DNA from: a virus | Reading direction: 5' to 3' (one strand) | IMG/VR virus record: IMGVR_UViG_3300050119_000072 | Location: 1-64,000 of that record | Length of the DNA: 64,000 nt | Shown: positions 11,466 through 63,200 of the stretch, in pieces | Numbering within the stretch: the first letter of the stretch is position 1 | Layout of the letters: each line of letters opens with the position of its first letter | Made by a program: the position numbers and the translations under genes | The notes under the pieces: generated by a model | The model's database searches: none | Told to the model about the DNA's origin: nothing | The model's input: the letters and a program-made list of their open reading frames with translations, nothing else

Positions 11466-11693
11466 ATGGCAAAAACACCATCCACGGGCAAACTCATCAT
11501 TGCGCTGCGCGACAAGAAAAAGCTCAATCAAAAGGCCTTTGCGAAGCGCCTTGGCATCAGCGCGGCCAACCTGTGCCGGCTGGAAAACGACCAGCAGGCG
11601 GTATCGGCACCGCTGATGCGCAAATTCATGCGCATGGGCCTGTCCGCCGCTGATCTTCTTCGCGAACCGCCGTCCCGCACCAAAGCGGCCTGA
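11466..11693 (+). CDS. XRE/Cro-like helix-turn-helix regulator
   Basis: A 75 aa protein. Residues about 18-45 (LNQKAFAKRLGISAANLCRLENDQQAV) form the XRE helix-turn-helix, with a short C-terminal extension. It is divergent from the early operon and faces the candidate operator. Such proteins repress one of two divergent promoters in temperate phages, yet lytic phages carry them too. A TATTAT hexamer at 11421-11426 may be its -10 box, with only a weak -35. Confidence 0.85.
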   Translation: MAKTPSTGKLIIALRDKKKLNQKAFAKRLGISAANLCRLENDQQAVSAPLMRKFMRMGLSAADLLREPPSRTKAA

Positions 11694-11713: not shown

Positions 11714-12091
11714 ATGACACTTCCAGGAAGTACGTGGAAACCGTTGACGGACGAGGATCGGAAGTCGCGCCTGGATGCGGCGTTCGATATCGTGTGCACC
11801 GCTGCGGCCGCTGGCCATCGCTGTCCACAGAATGGCGAGCATGGTCTGGCCTCTGGCGCGCTGCCTGAACTCGCGCGCGCCGGCCGGATCAAAATCTATA
11901 TCTACCCGCACAATTACCGAGTGATTTTAATCCTCGAAGGGCCGCACCGCGGCTGCCGCACTGCTGACGCTCCAACGGGCCGTCATCCCTGGAAACTCAT
12001 CGACAAAAACGGCACCCGCGTCAACGGGGCCTTGAAAACTCCTGCGTCACGATCGATCCCGTCACTCGCCAAGATCACTGCGTTCGATTAA
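11714..12091 (+). CDS. Unknown 125 aa protein
   Basis: Contains a conserved-looking RKSRLDAAFDIVCTAAAAGHRCPQN helix and ARAGRIKIYIYPHNYRVILI, which reads as beta strands. Cotranscribed 20 nt after the XRE gene. It might be a small DNA-binding or modulator protein; no family named. Confidence 0.7.
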   Translation: MTLPGSTWKPLTDEDRKSRLDAAFDIVCTAAAAGHRCPQNGEHGLASGALPELARAGRIKIYIYPHNYRVILILEGPHRGCRTADAPTGRHPWKLIDKNGTRVNGALKTPASRSIPSLAKITAFD

Positions 12092-12109
12092 CAGTAAGGG
12101 AGAATGGCA

Positions 12110-12853
12110 ATGACCGCTTTAATCTTGCAAACGCGCCTGTCGTTACGCTTCGGTTTAGTCTGGGTCATCGAGGCGATTGCTCTCTTGCTTTGGTTGGCTG
12201 TGGTTTTTATCGTCAGTGCGATCGTGTTGCTGGTGTGGCAAACCTCTGTGTTCGCCGCGCCGAGGCACCCGCAGTTATCCGCGCAATCGTCTTATACTTT
12301 TGATGGGGACCGGTATGTTTGGTCCAGCAGCTCCGCCGCCGCCACCGCCGCAACGGGCTCGTCGGCGAAGCGTGCCGCGCGTCGTTCATCCTCCCGAGTT
12401 GGACAAGCCCGGGGTGGTGAGCGGCGCGCGGCCGCGCGGGATGGCTACGTCACGATCGACACAGCGGCCGGCATCGCCATCACCGTTGCATCCGAATTTG
12501 CCCCGAAAATTCAAGGGTTTATAGCCGATGTGGTCGCGAGCGGGTATCACCCGAAGAAAATCCACTGCGCTGCCGGTGGTGGCCATGTGGCCCACTCGCT
12601 GCACTACGTCGGCCGGGCCTGCGATTTCGACCAACGGGGGTGGGGGCTGACGGCGCGCTTCATGTACCACGTCAGCGCACTCGCCGAAAAATGGGGTCTG
12701 CGAGACGGCAAGGAATTTGCCGACTCCGGCCACATCGACGATGGCCCGCACCTCAACCGGCATGCGCGCATCGCGGCGATCAAGGCGACACCGTTCTATG
12801 GCGCGACGTCGCTTTACCACGACAAGCACAACATTCGCGTCAGCCGCCAATGA
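12110..12853 (+). CDS. Membrane-anchored M15-type peptidase (endolysin candidate)
   Basis: Residues about 10-45 form a long hydrophobic segment (signal anchor). A Ser/Ala/Arg-rich linker follows, then a C-terminal domain with GGHVAHSLHYVGRACDFD and EFADSGHID. These give the His, Asp and His zinc ligands of M15/D-Ala-D-Ala carboxypeptidase-like enzymes (SxHxxGxAxD pattern), which cut peptidoglycan crosslinks. Two ATG codons compete; ATG 12110 is better spaced from GGGAGA than ATG 12104. The anchor would place the enzyme in or across the inner membrane, as for signal-anchor endolysins. The adjacent gene encodes another exported protein. Confidence 0.75.
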   Translation: MTALILQTRLSLRFGLVWVIEAIALLLWLAVVFIVSAIVLLVWQTSVFAAPRHPQLSAQSSYTFDGDRYVWSSSSAAATAATGSSAKRAARRSSSRVGQARGGERRAAARDGYVTIDTAAGIAITVASEFAPKIQGFIADVVASGYHPKKIHCAAGGGHVAHSLHYVGRACDFDQRGWGLTARFMYHVSALAEKWGLRDGKEFADSGHIDDGPHLNRHARIAAIKATPFYGATSLYHDKHNIRVSRQ

Positions 12854-13260
12854 CCCGCCGCACCGCCGGCCCGTGGCGCCCGTTGCCGCCGCGCCCGTTT
12901 CTCGGGCGCATCATCCTGGTTGGTTTGGCGGTGGTGATCGGCGCCTCCGCGCTTTGCATTTTCGCCCCGCGTGCGCGCGCGGAGTGCAACGCAAACCTCA
13001 TGAAAATCCTTGCCTACGAGCACTCCAAGGACATGGCGCGGCGCAACAGCCTCGACCATGCTGGGTTCGAGGCGCGCGCGCGGCGAGGTGCCAGGGCCGA
13101 GAACGTGGCCTATGGGTATAAAACCCTTGAGGGCACCATGGAGCAATGGCGCAGGTCCCCGCCGCACGCGGCCAATCTCGCGCTACCAGGATGCCGTGGT
13201 GTTGCGTCGGCGCGGTCCGCCAGCGGGCGAATTTTTTGGACTCTCGAAATAGGTGAGTAG
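12850..13260 (+). CDS. Secreted CAP (SCP/PR-1) domain protein
   Basis: A 136 aa protein. A hydrophobic signal peptide (about residues 16-42, ending APRARA) precedes a compact CAP domain: HSKDMARRNSLDHAGF (first active-site-region His), ENVAYGY, and EQWRRSPPHAANL with the second His, ending in WTLEIGE. These are the CAP signature boxes in order. ATG 12850 overlaps the peptidase stop as ATGA, so the two exported proteins are coupled. In bacteria CAP proteins sit in the envelope and their chemistry is mostly unknown. Unusual cargo for a phage; could assist lysis or protect the infected cell. Confidence 0.8.
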   Translation: MTRRTAGPWRPLPPRPFLGRIILVGLAVVIGASALCIFAPRARAECNANLMKILAYEHSKDMARRNSLDHAGFEARARRGARAENVAYGYKTLEGTMEQWRRSPPHAANLALPGCRGVASARSASGRIFWTLEIGE

Positions 13261-13373: not shown

Positions 13374-14180
13374 ATGAGCCTTCCGCGAATGTCTCTCCAC
13401 ATCGGAGATTATCGCAAGGACACCGGCCATCTGCGGGCCGCACTGCACGGCGCCTACCTCTTGCTCATCATGCACTACTGGGCGACCGGCGGCCTGCCGG
13501 CCGATGATTATCAACTTGCCTCCATCGCCTGCATGTCTGACGCGGAATGGAGGCGCGCAAAGCCCATAATACAAGGGTTTTTCGGGCCAGACTGGAAGCA
13601 TAAACGGATCGAGACCGAGATCGCGGCGGCCACGGCAAAATACCAAAAGCGTGTTGCCGCCGGCAAGAAAGGGGGTCAGCAGAAGTCTAGCAATGCTACA
13701 GCAAAGGCCAAGCAACCAATAACCCTAACCAATAGCAAGAGCGAAGATGGTGGTGGTGGGGCGCGCGCGCGCGAGGCTGTGCCGGGTTCCTCTAGCTTAA
13801 TCTCGAATGAAGCTATGGCGTTGGCCGACGATCTTGCGGTTGTAGCTGGGCACGATCCTAAATTCGTCCCCCCCGCATGGTGCGGCGCACCGATGCGTGT
13901 GCAGATGTGGCTCGATCGAGGTTGGACCCGCGAGGTAATTTTGATCGCCGCCAAGGGTGCGATGAGCGCCAAGCGAGACGGCTCTCCATCCACCGTAAAT
14001 TATTTCGAGAAGCCGATCTCGCGGATGGTCGCGCAGCAATCAATTCCAATCGCAACCGTGGAGGCACTAAATGGAGCACCTGCAATACGTCCAGCAAAAC
14101 AAGCCGGATGGCAGCAGCGCAGAGACGACTGGTTTGATGCTCTCGGAGAGCTCGGTGAGCACAACGCAGCAAACGGATAG
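13374..14180 (+). CDS. DUF1376 (YdaU-like) replication-region protein
   Basis: A 268 aa protein. Residues about 5-70 match DUF1376: LHIGDYRKDTGHLRAALHGAYLLLIMHYWATGGLPADDYQLASIA. DUF1376 proteins occur at the position of phage replication initiators. The middle is low complexity (Lys, Ser, Gly). The last 90 residues are a second globular part (VQMWLDRGWTREVILIAAK). Start 13374 has AGGAA 9 nt upstream; upstream in-frame starts lack a site. Overlaps the next gene by 110 nt. Confidence 0.8.
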   Translation: MSLPRMSLHIGDYRKDTGHLRAALHGAYLLLIMHYWATGGLPADDYQLASIACMSDAEWRRAKPIIQGFFGPDWKHKRIETEIAAATAKYQKRVAAGKKGGQQKSSNATAKAKQPITLTNSKSEDGGGGARAREAVPGSSSLISNEAMALADDLAVVAGHDPKFVPPAWCGAPMRVQMWLDRGWTREVILIAAKGAMSAKRDGSPSTVNYFEKPISRMVAQQSIPIATVEALNGAPAIRPAKQAGWQQRRDDWFDALGELGEHNAANG

Positions 14181-20830: not shown

Positions 20831-21583
20831 ATGGACCCCTCGATCCGCGACACCATAGCCAGGGTGGCGCAGGAAGAGGGCATCGATCCCAGCTACGCTC
20901 TCGCCGTGGCTGACCGGGAATCCGGCTTTAACCCGAACGCGCGCGCGTCACGCACGATCGCCGGCCTCTACCAAATGACCGGCACGCTGCGCAATCAATA
21001 CGGCGCTGGCGACAGCGCGGATCCCGCGACGCAGACGCGCGCCTTCGCCGCCTTTACCAAAGACAACCAGGCGCAGATGGCGTCACAGCTTGGTCGTCAG
21101 CCGACCGGTCCAGAATTATATATGGGACATTTTTGGGGCGCGAACCGCGCTGCCGGCGTCATCGCTGGGCAGCACGCCGGATTAGCGCCATCCGATGTGT
21201 TCACGCCCAATGAGTTGGCGCAGAACCCGGAACTGGCGAAGGGCTCGAGCGCCGGCGGACTGGCCGGCACCATCATGGCCGATATCAGCCGGCGCCAAGC
21301 CAAGTATGGCGGAAACAGTGATAATCCTATCGGACACGGGGATAATTCTCCGGCCGGCGGTACAGATTTCGCCAGCTATGGCGACCCCAAAGGCTTCAAT
21401 TTCGCGCAGTTCGGACAGTCCGCCGATGATGGCATGTCGAGTTCTTCGCCCGCCCAGGCGGGCGCAAAAATCGACACGGGCTCCGTTATCCCAGGCGGCC
21501 GACCAGGCACCGAGATTGATCTCGCCCAATTCGGGCAACCCGCGCAGCCGCCGGCCGCGCCACCAGCAACAGCACAGGTCTAA
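20831..21583 (+). CDS. Lytic transglycosylase (SLT-like), virion-associated
   Basis: A 250 aa protein. Residues about 10-120 match the SLT fold: IDPSYALAVADRESGFNPNARA with catalytic Glu30 in the ES motif, then AGLYQMTGTLRNQYG and PELYMGHFWGANRAAGVI. It cleaves the glycan backbone of peptidoglycan. The C-terminal third is a Gly/Asp/Pro-rich linker with repeated AQFGQ or SYGDPKGF-like elements, and the polyvalent protein at 60289 also has QFGxx pieces (DQFGK, TQFGS). That favours a virion or ejection role rather than host lysis. Confidence 0.85.
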   Translation: MDPSIRDTIARVAQEEGIDPSYALAVADRESGFNPNARASRTIAGLYQMTGTLRNQYGAGDSADPATQTRAFAAFTKDNQAQMASQLGRQPTGPELYMGHFWGANRAAGVIAGQHAGLAPSDVFTPNELAQNPELAKGSSAGGLAGTIMADISRRQAKYGGNSDNPIGHGDNSPAGGTDFASYGDPKGFNFAQFGQSADDGMSSSSPAQAGAKIDTGSVIPGGRPGTEIDLAQFGQPAQPPAAPPATAQV

Positions 21584-33894: not shown

Positions 33895-35424
33895 ATGCGA
33901 GAGGAAACCCGCGACCTCACCATCGGCGAAGCGCTCGACCTCGGCTGCCAGATGGCGCTGGCAGGCCGCAATCTCGATGCCATCGGGCTCTTCAAAGGCG
34001 TCCTCATCCATGAGCCGGAGAACTTTGAGGCGATGGAGCGGCTCGGCTCATCCCTCTTCGAGCTCAAGCGCTACCACGAAGCGCTGTATTATTTCTGGCG
34101 CGGCCGCAAGCTATGCCGCCGCCATCCGCTCGCCCTGACCAATTACGGGCTCACCGTCTCCCAGCTTGGGCACTGGGAGGAAGGGTTGGCCGAGCTTCAA
34201 AAAGCCGTTGCCATCATCGAGCGCGGCAAGCATGAGGTCGCGCCGGCGGTCAAGTCCTTGGTCTACAACAACCTGGGCAACGCCTTGCAGCGGGTCGAGA
34301 AATTCGCGGAAGCGCTCGCCTACCTCGACAAAGGCATTGCGCTCAACCCGCAGGATCACTTCCCGCACTACAATCGCGGCGTCGCGCTCCTGCGACTCAA
34401 CCGGCACAAGGAAGCGGTCGCGTCTCTAGATCGTTGCCTGACGCTCAAGCCAAACGACCAGGAGGCGCTTTACAATCGGTCCATGGGGCGCCTGCTGCTC
34501 GGCGACATGCAAGGCGGCTTTGCCGACTACGATGCTCGGCTGCTGACCTCTGAGAACACCGTCGTCAACCTTGGTCTGCCGGCGGACAAGAAGTGGGACG
34601 GTGGCGACCTCGCCGGCAAGACCATCCTTGTGCACTGCGAGCAAGGGCTTGGCGACGATATCCAGTTTCTGCGGTTCCTGCCGGCGCTGCGCGAGAAGAA
34701 CCCCGCGCGAATCCTGCTGGTGCCGCACTCAGCCATCACGCCAATGATCGCTCCGATGGAGGGCATGACCATCCGGCCCTCTGGCGTCCCAATCGACTTC
34801 GGAGAATTCGATTGCTGGGTAGCGCTGATGTCGCTCCCGCACTACCTCGGGCTGGATCAGGAGACATTGCTGCCGGCTTCGTGGCAGCCCGTTATCGAAC
34901 CCTCGCGGATCGCCGCATGGCGCATGAAGCTGGACCTTGACGCGAAGCGCCTCAAGGTCGGGGTGTGCTGGGCCGGCAACTGGCTCCATAAAAACGACAA
35001 GCATCGCTCAATCCCCTTGGCCAAGTTTGCGCCATTGTTCGACGCGATGGGTGTCACCTTCGTCAGCCTGCAACAGTTGCGCCCTGGCGAGAACAAGGAA
35101 TTTGATACGCTGGTCGCGAACAACACGGACCTGCGCTCGTTCTACTTCGACGACTTTCGCGACACTGCGGCAGCCATGCTCAATCTCGACATGGTGATAT
35201 CGGTAGATACGTCAGTGGCTCATCTTGCGGCGACGCTCGGCATCCCGACCAAAGTGCTGGTTCCTGCCTTCGGAACCGATTGGCGATGGGGACTGGGGCG
35301 CTCTGACTCGCCATGGTATCGGTCGGCCACCATTTATCGACAGCCGAAAGTCGGAGATTGGGTCTCCGTCATCGACAAGCTTCGCGCCGAATTGACGCGC
35401 CAAGCCATGATCTGGCCCGCATGA
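33895..35424 (+). CDS. TPR-glycosyltransferase
   Basis: A 509 aa protein. About residues 5-215 hold TPR units (for example FKGVLIHEPENFEAMERLGSSL, YHEALYYFWRG, YHNLGN-like VYNNLGNALQRVEKFAEALAYLDKGI). About residues 220-505 form a GT-B-like glycosyltransferase: ILVHCEQGLGDDIQFLRFLPAL, VGVCWAGNWLHKNDKHRSI, VISVDTSVAHLAATLGIPTKVLVPA. The pattern resembles GT9/heptosyltransferase-like domains joined to TPR, a common bacterial type that glycosylates proteins or surface sugars. A paralogue is at 37648. Confidence 0.8.
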   Translation: MREETRDLTIGEALDLGCQMALAGRNLDAIGLFKGVLIHEPENFEAMERLGSSLFELKRYHEALYYFWRGRKLCRRHPLALTNYGLTVSQLGHWEEGLAELQKAVAIIERGKHEVAPAVKSLVYNNLGNALQRVEKFAEALAYLDKGIALNPQDHFPHYNRGVALLRLNRHKEAVASLDRCLTLKPNDQEALYNRSMGRLLLGDMQGGFADYDARLLTSENTVVNLGLPADKKWDGGDLAGKTILVHCEQGLGDDIQFLRFLPALREKNPARILLVPHSAITPMIAPMEGMTIRPSGVPIDFGEFDCWVALMSLPHYLGLDQETLLPASWQPVIEPSRIAAWRMKLDLDAKRLKVGVCWAGNWLHKNDKHRSIPLAKFAPLFDAMGVTFVSLQQLRPGENKEFDTLVANNTDLRSFYFDDFRDTAAAMLNLDMVISVDTSVAHLAATLGIPTKVLVPAFGTDWRWGLGRSDSPWYRSATIYRQPKVGDWVSVIDKLRAELTRQAMIWPA

Positions 35425-60288: not shown

Positions 60289-63200
60289 ATGGCACTCGCT
60301 GACCAGTTGGGCGCGGTTGATCCGCAAGGCATTGTCACCGGCTTGGTTGCCGACCAAGCGCCCGACCTTGTCCAAAACGATGGCAGCGTAGACCCGCAGT
60401 CCGTTCTCGATCGACTGATCCGCAAGGGTCTCAGTTCGGACCAGCAGAAAGCGCTTTCCGACGCGAAAACAAATGCGGCGCCAGACGGGATCGACCAGTT
60501 CGGCAAGACCAAGGAACAGGTCGACGCCGAGCCGCAGCCGGATTTCACCCAGTTCGGATCGGCGACGCCGCAATCCGCTCAACCGATACCAGGTGGTGGC
60601 ACCGTCGCTGGTGGCGCTTGGGCAGGAGCGAAGTCTCTCGCGCAAGCGCCGATCACGGCAACTGGCAAAGCCATTCAGGCGGCGGCGAGGACGGTCAACG
60701 ATATCACCCCGACAATGGTGCAGACGGCCGGCGGCGAAGGTTCGCCGTTGTCCGTGGAGGATTTGACGCCGCCACCGGCTGAGCCGGTCCAGAAAAATCC
60801 GGTTCTGAGCAAAGTCTATAACGCCGGACAGGCGGTGCGAAACTTTGGCGAGCAACAGATCCCGGTCTCCGAGGCGGAGAAGAAAACCTACCCGATATGG
60901 ACCGGAGTCGGCTCTGCGGTCGGGACCCTTGCGCCGCTCGTCGCGCTTGGTGCGCTAAACCCCGAAGCGGCGATCGCTGGTGGCGCGGCCCTGTTCGGTG
61001 GCTCCGGATCGCAGGATACCTATGAGGCCGCGATCGCGCACGGCGCAGATCAAGAAACCGCCAGCGCGGCGGCCAATCTCTCAGGGTTAGCAAACGCCGC
61101 ACTCGGTTCTGCGCCGATCGGCCTCGTCCTGCGGCCGTTCCAGAAGTTCATGCCCGCTGCGTCAGGCTATGCCGTGCGCATGCTCGCGCAGGCAGCGCAG
61201 AACGGCGTTGTTTTCGCCGGCATCGGCGAGGCGCAGGAATACATCGGCGAGCAAATCGCCAAGGCCTATGACCCGAAAGCTGGTTATTCGCTCGATGCGA
61301 ACCGCCTGATTGTGAGCCTCCTGTCCGGCGGATTGCTCGGCGCGGGCCACGCGGCCTACGACCGATATGCCACGGGGAAGGCCGTCTCCGACCTCTACAA
61401 GCTGAACCAACCGGCGGCGGGTGGCGAGGCTGATGATACCGCCCCCGGCGCGCTTCCGCGCCCCGATGCTGGCCCCGGTCCCGGACCTGGTCCTGGACAA
61501 GGGCCCGGGCCTGATACCGGCACAGGCGCAGGTGCTGGTGCCGGGCCTGGCGAAGCCGAGCCAGAATTCCAGCCGGACTTTTCTCCGGCAAAGCGCAGCA
61601 CGCTCGAAAAGGTGGCTGCCGCCTACAGCACAAACCTCAAAGACGGTCACTCGGCAAAGGATATCTCGTCGTGGAGCGACGCCCAGTTGATGGCGTATCT
61701 CAATGATGCGGATAAAAGATCAAATCCGGCGAAAGCTGACGCGCCCGTCGCGACACCCGGCACTCCCGACAACCCGATCAACCTGCAAACACCGCAGGAC
61801 CTTGCGCATGCCGTTTCGGTCGCCGATGAGACATCGAGCCACGCGCAGGGCGAAGCCAATAACGCTCCGCGCGTGCACGCGGTCTGGAACGATCTGCCGA
61901 TTACTTTGGAAACCGCCGGCGCCAACAATGTGCGACGCGGTGTGGCCGAGGACGGAACGCCATGGGAACAATCCATGGGCGGCCCGTCAGGATATTTCAA
62001 AGGAACGATCGGCGCTGACGGCGATCATGTCGATGTGACCGTAGGACCGCAGCCGGGGTCCAAGCAGGTCTACGTCATCGACGAGAAGGCGGCCGACACC
62101 GGAGACTTCCGCCAGCACAAGGTCATGATCGGGTTTGGAAACCAGATCGACGCTCTCAATGCCTATACGCAGCGCACGCAAGGCAAATCGGCAAAGATGG
62201 TCGGCGGCGTGCGCCTGTTCACGCCAGAACAGTTGAAGGACTGGCTCAAGACCGGAGACACCAAAGCGCCTCTCTCCGACACGATGACCGCCGCGGCGAA
62301 AGCCAAGGACGAGAGCATCCTGCCGGAAGATGCCGTACCAACGTCGCAGCACACAGACGCTGTTGATGGCGCGCTGCGAGCCGCCGGCGTCAATCCAGAT
62401 GCCGTCCGCCCTGCCGACAAGGCCCGCGCCGCCGAGATCCACGCCGAAGGCGCGCCGGCAGATCAGGCTTTCCCCGTCGCCGTCGTGCGCGGGCTGGTCG
62501 ATAGCGGCCACATCACACCGGACCAAGTTAGAGAGGCGATAGGCGATGAAGCAGCCGAAGGGGTATTGGGCACCGGCGGCCGGGCTCAACGCGGCGCACG
62601 CGCTGAGACACATGGCGCCGGCCCTGGTGGGGAGGCTGCCGCGCCCGCAAATGGCGTCGGTCCACGCGGCAATGAAGGTGGGAATGCCGAAGCTGCCAGC
62701 GGCGGCGAAAGTGGCGAGCCCGCTGTCGGCCAAAAGCCCGCTGGCAGTGCCGCGGGCGGGGAGCAACGTCGGGAAAACAATGGCGGGGCCGGCAACGGCG
62801 CTGCCGCAGGGGTCGCCAATGACCACAACGTCGCTGGGAGCGAACCCGGCGAGCGCGCTGAGCAAGCCCATCCTGAGCACAAAGCTACCGAAACTCCCGC
62901 CGCTGCCCTGATCGGCGCGCGCGTCAAATCGATGCCCGAGCACAAGGTCGTCGCCGCCGATGGAAAGTCGGTGCGCGTCGTCCCGGTGGTGACCGAGGCA
63001 TCGAAGCTCATTGCGTCGTCAGATCCCGGATACGACAAGGACATTCAGCCGCGCGAGCGCGACCGCGCCGCGGCTCAAGCGCAGGTGCGCGAGATCGCGA
63101 CCCGCCTTGATCCGGAACGTCTTGGATATTCCGCAGAAGCCGACCGTGGGGCGCCGATCGTCGGCCCCGACGGCATGGTCGAAAGCGGCAACGGCCGAGT

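Follow-up and report, generated by a model that had tools for sequence, protein, structure and literature searches.

The window analysed here, which covers the first 64,000 nucleotides (1-64000) of a virus record 86,655 bp long, carries a gene for a putative exported cell wall peptidase whose end is overlapped by the start of a gene for a predicted secreted CAP (SCP/PR-1) protein. The sequence gives good grounds for an exported wall peptidase adjoined by a CAP protein, and an accessory peptidoglycan-modifying pair appears likelier than the self-contained lysis cassette of a new type put forward in a preliminary description of this DNA. A CAP gene overlapping an M15 gene was seen in this one genome only and nowhere else among the sequences examined. 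The novelty lies in the pairing, an unusual combination of known parts, both kinds of protein being already known in phages. The record seems to originate from a tailed phage whose host is probably an alphaproteobacterium. As the terminase of the closest cultured phage is merely 25% identical, no experimental model is at hand. The features of the locus are as follows.

11466-11693, + strand: HTH regulator, first gene of the run on this strand (PF01381, E 8e-7)
11714-12091, + strand: 125-aa protein, 18 bases upstream of the peptidase (ORF)
12096-12103, + strand: Shine-Dalgarno-like AAGGGAGA before ATG 12110 (read directly)
12110-12853, + strand: putative M15/LAS-type peptidase, 247 aa (ORF list)
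12110-12260, + strand: N-terminal hydrophobic segment of the peptidase, predicted to form a membrane helix acting as signal anchor or signal peptide (hydropathy, model)
12850-12853, + strand: ATGA, shared by the end of the peptidase gene and the beginning of the CAP gene (read directly)
12850-13260, + strand: CAP (SCP/PR-1) protein, 136 aa, predicted secreted (ORF list, PF00188)
13374-14180, + strand: DUF1376 / primosomal replication protein, downstream (PF07120, E 5e-18; phrog_3992, E 4e-22)

Both reading frames were found where the preliminary description had placed them, and the ATGA overlap could be confirmed: the peptidase ends with TGA at 12851-12853 and the CAP frame extends from ATG 12850 to a TAG stop at 13258-13260. 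No clear ribosome-binding site was found upstream of 12850, which fits translational coupling. The likelier start of the peptidase is 12110 rather than 12104, since AAGGGAGA directly abuts 12104 and is normally spaced from 12110. The pair is flanked by the HTH gene and the DUF1376 gene and surrounded by regulatory and replication genes. The 125-aa protein matched no family in Pfam, PHROG and NCBIfam scans. Gaps among the upstream genes are short, and 113 bases separate the CAP gene from the DUF1376 gene. The arm at 1-11.3 kb, on the - strand, contains RecE-like and Erf-like recombination genes; the terminase and virion genes are located to the right of the pair. The region at 11.0-14.2 kb showed no sigma-70-like promoter, promoter and terminator counts around the pair are close to chance, and a terminator candidate 3' of the CAP gene was rejected upon folding no better than shuffled sequences. 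The pair is consequently not delimited as a transcription unit of its own. No tyrosine integrase was found in the 86,655 bp record which, together with the lack of a promoter at 11.0-14.2 kb, leaves both early expression and lysogeny unsupported. Elsewhere in the record, an SLT transglycosylase-domain protein, possibly virion-associated, is encoded upstream of the terminase (20831-21583), a TPR-repeat protein lies amid structural genes (33895-35424), and an ORF of 5142 aa begins at 60289, runs past 64000 and ends at 75717 of the record. The latter displays inorganic pyrophosphatase, ddrB-ParB and LPD38 domains along with sub-threshold RelA/SpoT and SNF2 matches, and is a large polyvalent protein, probably injected.

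The peptidase gave no match above threshold in Pfam, PHROG, NCBIfam or PADLOC, did not match any curated M15 profile and retrieved no relevant PDB entry in sequence searches. Its assignment as a putative M15/LAS-type zinc metallopeptidase, probably cutting the host wall, is based on an invariant signature, on the weak endolysin matches of its relatives and on a predicted fold whose best matches are exclusively of the LAS type; the M15-type peptidase announced in the preliminary description is thereby retained. The signature HxxGxACD...DxGH is present in 14 of the 14 aligned sequences, with H161, S165, H167, G170, D174, D176, D207, G209, H210 and D212 (numbered from ATG 12104) invariant. Within this set, H167, D174 and H210 (H-x6-D...H) are the putative zinc ligands and D207, located three residues before H210 (D-x-x-H), the putative catalytic acid. 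PHROG 894 ('endolysin') is weakly matched by five of nine relatives (best E 0.0019). The AlphaFold2 model (pLDDT 74, pTM 0.50) returns LAS, M15 or Hedgehog structures in all its top 15 PDB fold matches. None of these is strong by itself (best E 0.049); VanY, LdcB and Hedgehog lead the list, in which the RB49 endolysin ranks 14th. The bond cut would be of the L-Ala-D-Glu endopeptidase or of the D,D/L,D-carboxypeptidase type, between which the sequence does not allow a choice.

The spacings H167-x6-D174 and D207-x2-H210 are common to the L-Ala-D-Glu peptidase of T5 (EndoT5; H66, D73, D130, H133), compared through the residue numbers given in PMC10487532 rather than by direct alignment, and to ChiX of Serratia (H68, D75, D120, H123; PMC5778951). 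The model of the window peptidase hints, through weak matches, at the LAS fold of ChiX and of the M15_C enzymes EndoT5 and EndoRB49. In contrast to these three enzymes, the window peptidase appears to be exported and possesses its own membrane segment and a long linker. EndoT5 carries W114 16 residues before D130, whereas the window peptidase has no Trp at that spacing and no M15 model match; its conserved Trp, W180, lies 27 residues before D207 and is missing from two of the 14 sequences. As no counterpart of the conserved M15_C Trp was found at the expected spacing, the protein was not filed as M15_C. In its architecture, a long membrane segment at the N-terminus is followed by a linker and by the M15/LAS-type metallopeptidase domain. 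The N-terminus reaches a top 19-residue hydropathy of 3.1 and is modelled as a helix over residues 2-50 with high pLDDT. Of the membrane anchoring proposed initially, the hydrophobic helix and export signal stand; a retained anchor and a signal cleaved at VFA/AP are indistinguishable.

Scans of viral contigs identified 14 loci with relatives of the peptidase, the best being 65% identical over the domain. Most relatives from other phage contigs are exported proteins: the majority start with a signal-like sequence and one displays a lipobox. Recognised lysis-type neighbours, within a few kb of the relative, are limited to five loci and comprise a chitinase-like endolysin (phrog_181; L001 and L013), a phage lysozyme (L021), a CHAP-like protein (L020) and an Rv2525c-like hydrolase (L004). 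The same kind of domain is contained in tail tape-measure proteins of Rhizobium phages, and a related one in a Synechococcus phage protein. Among 297 genomes from the order to which Rhodoplanes belongs, 5 also encode a relative, in some cases beside housekeeping genes; a class-wide search, run without a positive control, gave 0 of 385 genomes. In three genomes of that order (L057, L058, L059), a chromosomal exported M15-like gene adjoins a phosphomannomutase-like gene. Another exported protein, M15-like by eye and without a Pfam match, is encoded at L068:5289-6035, on a phage contig whose terminase is 72% identical.

The second protein is a CAP protein with a signal peptide, as initially described. 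It matches PF00188 (E 5.4e-6, 27.7 bits, cut-off 21.1) over profile positions 19-114 of 117, placing the CAP domain at residues 47-131, and its predicted fold matches GAPR-1 (1smb; E 7.8e-4 by Foldseek) as well as PR-1 and BB0689. Profile positions 1-18, corresponding to the first helix, are missing from the phage protein and present in its chromosomal relatives. H70, E84 and H106 (LDH, AEN, PPH), which we take to be counterparts of the CAP cavity residues, are invariant in a small alignment with Rhodoplanes proteins. A Sec-type signal can be read from the sequence up to about residue 44, with an h-region at about 20-38 followed by ARA/EC, and no clear lipobox was found. The closest relatives are chromosomal lipoproteins of Rhodoplanes (Hyphomicrobiales; 49-51% identity), and relatives at E < 1e-8 occur in 20 of 297 genomes of that order; a tree of 30 rows puts the phage protein nearest to Rhodoplanes by path, its placement being unsure. 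Two of the Rhodoplanes proteins match NF052539 (E 5e-10 and 2e-9), the model of the DalA-type lipoproteins (RSP_1200) known from Alphaproteobacteria. The phage CAP differs from DalA in that it has no clear lipobox, matches the CAP profile without its initial part and falls far under the DalA cut-off (E 0.06, 13.2 bits against 200). According to a paper that makes no mention of a CAP domain (PMC10470522), DalA is a lipoprotein of the outer membrane and binds both peptidoglycan and proteins of the divisome. A DalA-like binding of peptidoglycan by the phage CAP is suggested by analogy with these relatives.

The reading that we tentatively favour, at somewhat less than even chances, is that the pair serves a tailed phage as an accessory envelope module, in which the CAP protein partners the exported peptidase. 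The sequence supports the two reading frames, their domains, the export signals, the overlap and the gene neighbourhood; the zinc peptidase activity, the bond that is cut, the binding of peptidoglycan by the CAP protein, the physical partnership, the timing and the host are inferred. The proposed mechanism can be summarized as follows. The peptidase would be exported by Sec and then either stay at the inner membrane through its N-terminal hydrophobic segment or be released. Its linker, flexible, basic and about 60 residues long, would enable the LAS/M15 zinc domain to reach the peptidoglycan, whose stem peptides it would cleave. The CAP protein, made by coupled translation and then exported, would bind peptidoglycan and, as the partner of the peptidase, position or restrain it, in the way proposed for DalA with Rhodobacter wall enzymes. 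The outcome would be a local loosening or trimming of the wall that aids the main lysis system, or a wall changed during infection, rather than lysis by the pair alone. Of the two roles suggested earlier, lysis and envelope modification, the second may well apply and is the sounder one.

An alternative that we consider unlikely regards the genes as a moron or superinfection-exclusion pair, which would keep out a second phage by changing the host wall or by covering a site in the periplasm, with no role in lysis. The location beside the HTH and replication genes and away from the lysis genes points in this direction, as do the chromosomal CAP relatives in likely hosts, which are expected for a captured gene. 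The window CAP matched only 3 of 50,697 phage records (tblastn), two of which are contigs; one of these contigs carries bacterial housekeeping genes, and the Acinetobacter 'phage' match, which sits among such genes, was set aside. A different CAP query matched 28 of the 50,697 records. The rarity claimed at the outset is thus sustained in the sense that such genes are uncommon, but they are known. In the Bacillus phages Slash, Staley, Stahl and Stills, likewise tailed and among those 28 records, they are annotated as 'secreted LysM/SCP-PR1 domain protein' or 'sporulation protein', and the Slash copy adjoins an anti-repressor gene, a further point in favour of exclusion. These proteins differ from the window CAP by their annotated LysM domain and Gram-positive host, and the 3.5 kb viewed to the left and to the right of the Slash gene contain no annotated M15 gene. 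Viral-contig scans with the window CAP alone retrieved no relative. CAP-domain genes were observed on four viral contigs (L061, L062, L063, L064), in two cases (L061 and L063) amid head genes (terminase, portal/protease and capsid, judged by inspection), between those resembling portal/protease and capsid. Exclusion is nevertheless weakened by the missing tyrosine integrase, by a PADLOC scan in which the pair matches no defence family and by the lack of any known exclusion protein among the relatives found.

The lysis genes proper are located outside the window, at 76.4-77.2 kb of the record. They comprise a phage lysozyme (GH24; PF00959, E 4e-26) at 76378 and, beside it, a short membrane protein at 76826 that is a probable holin, about 63 kb from the pair. 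No holin, endolysin or spanin was recognised beside the pair itself. With this separate system, with the pair lodged among regulatory and replication genes, and with no CAP gene in any other M15-family record examined, the self-contained new lysis cassette is not supported. A split lysis system, in which the peptidase would be a secreted auxiliary endolysin working with the lysozyme and the probable holin, and the CAP protein a helper or a hitch-hiker, is likewise improbable in our estimation. It is favoured by the proximity of the peptidase gene to an endolysin-type gene in several other phages, and by the gene at 75733, beside the lysozyme, which resembles the small exported CC-motif proteins encoded just downstream of the peptidase relative in L005, L007 and L008. 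This likeness was however judged by eye and not by alignment, and the peptidase gene adjoins replication genes at a great distance from the lysozyme.

Rather unlikely as well is a passenger role, in which a captured host DalA-like gene would simply lie beside the peptidase gene without any joint function. This explanation is consistent with the occurrence of the pair in one genome and with the chromosomal origin of the closest CAP relatives. No CAP gene was found with PF00188 in 11 M15-bearing virus records. Since the PF00188 search of the phage's own genome missed the window CAP, which passes the cut-off in an hmmscan of the protein, absences were rechecked on the fetched loci using a home-made CAP profile that recovers the window copy; no CAP gene was found in any other fetched M15 locus. 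As the pair is confined to one genome, the case for a common function is carried by the overlap. The ATGA overlap, the intact frame and the kept signal and domain suggest selection on co-expression, which argues against a mere passenger. Finally, a bolder scenario is very unlikely. In it, the CAP protein would imitate DalA-type proteins on behalf of the phage: bound to peptidoglycan or to the divisome, it would direct the membrane-tethered peptidase to the site of division early in infection, and host division would be blocked, or the wall remodelled, ahead of lysis.

The locus has implications for both protein families. Little is known of what bacterial CAP proteins do, and a CAP gene overlapping a putative wall peptidase gene in a phage would offer a small system linking CAP domains to peptidoglycan. 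The peptidase, in turn, would belong to an exported LAS family that is found mainly in phages and in a few Hyphomicrobiales genomes and is missed by current profile libraries.
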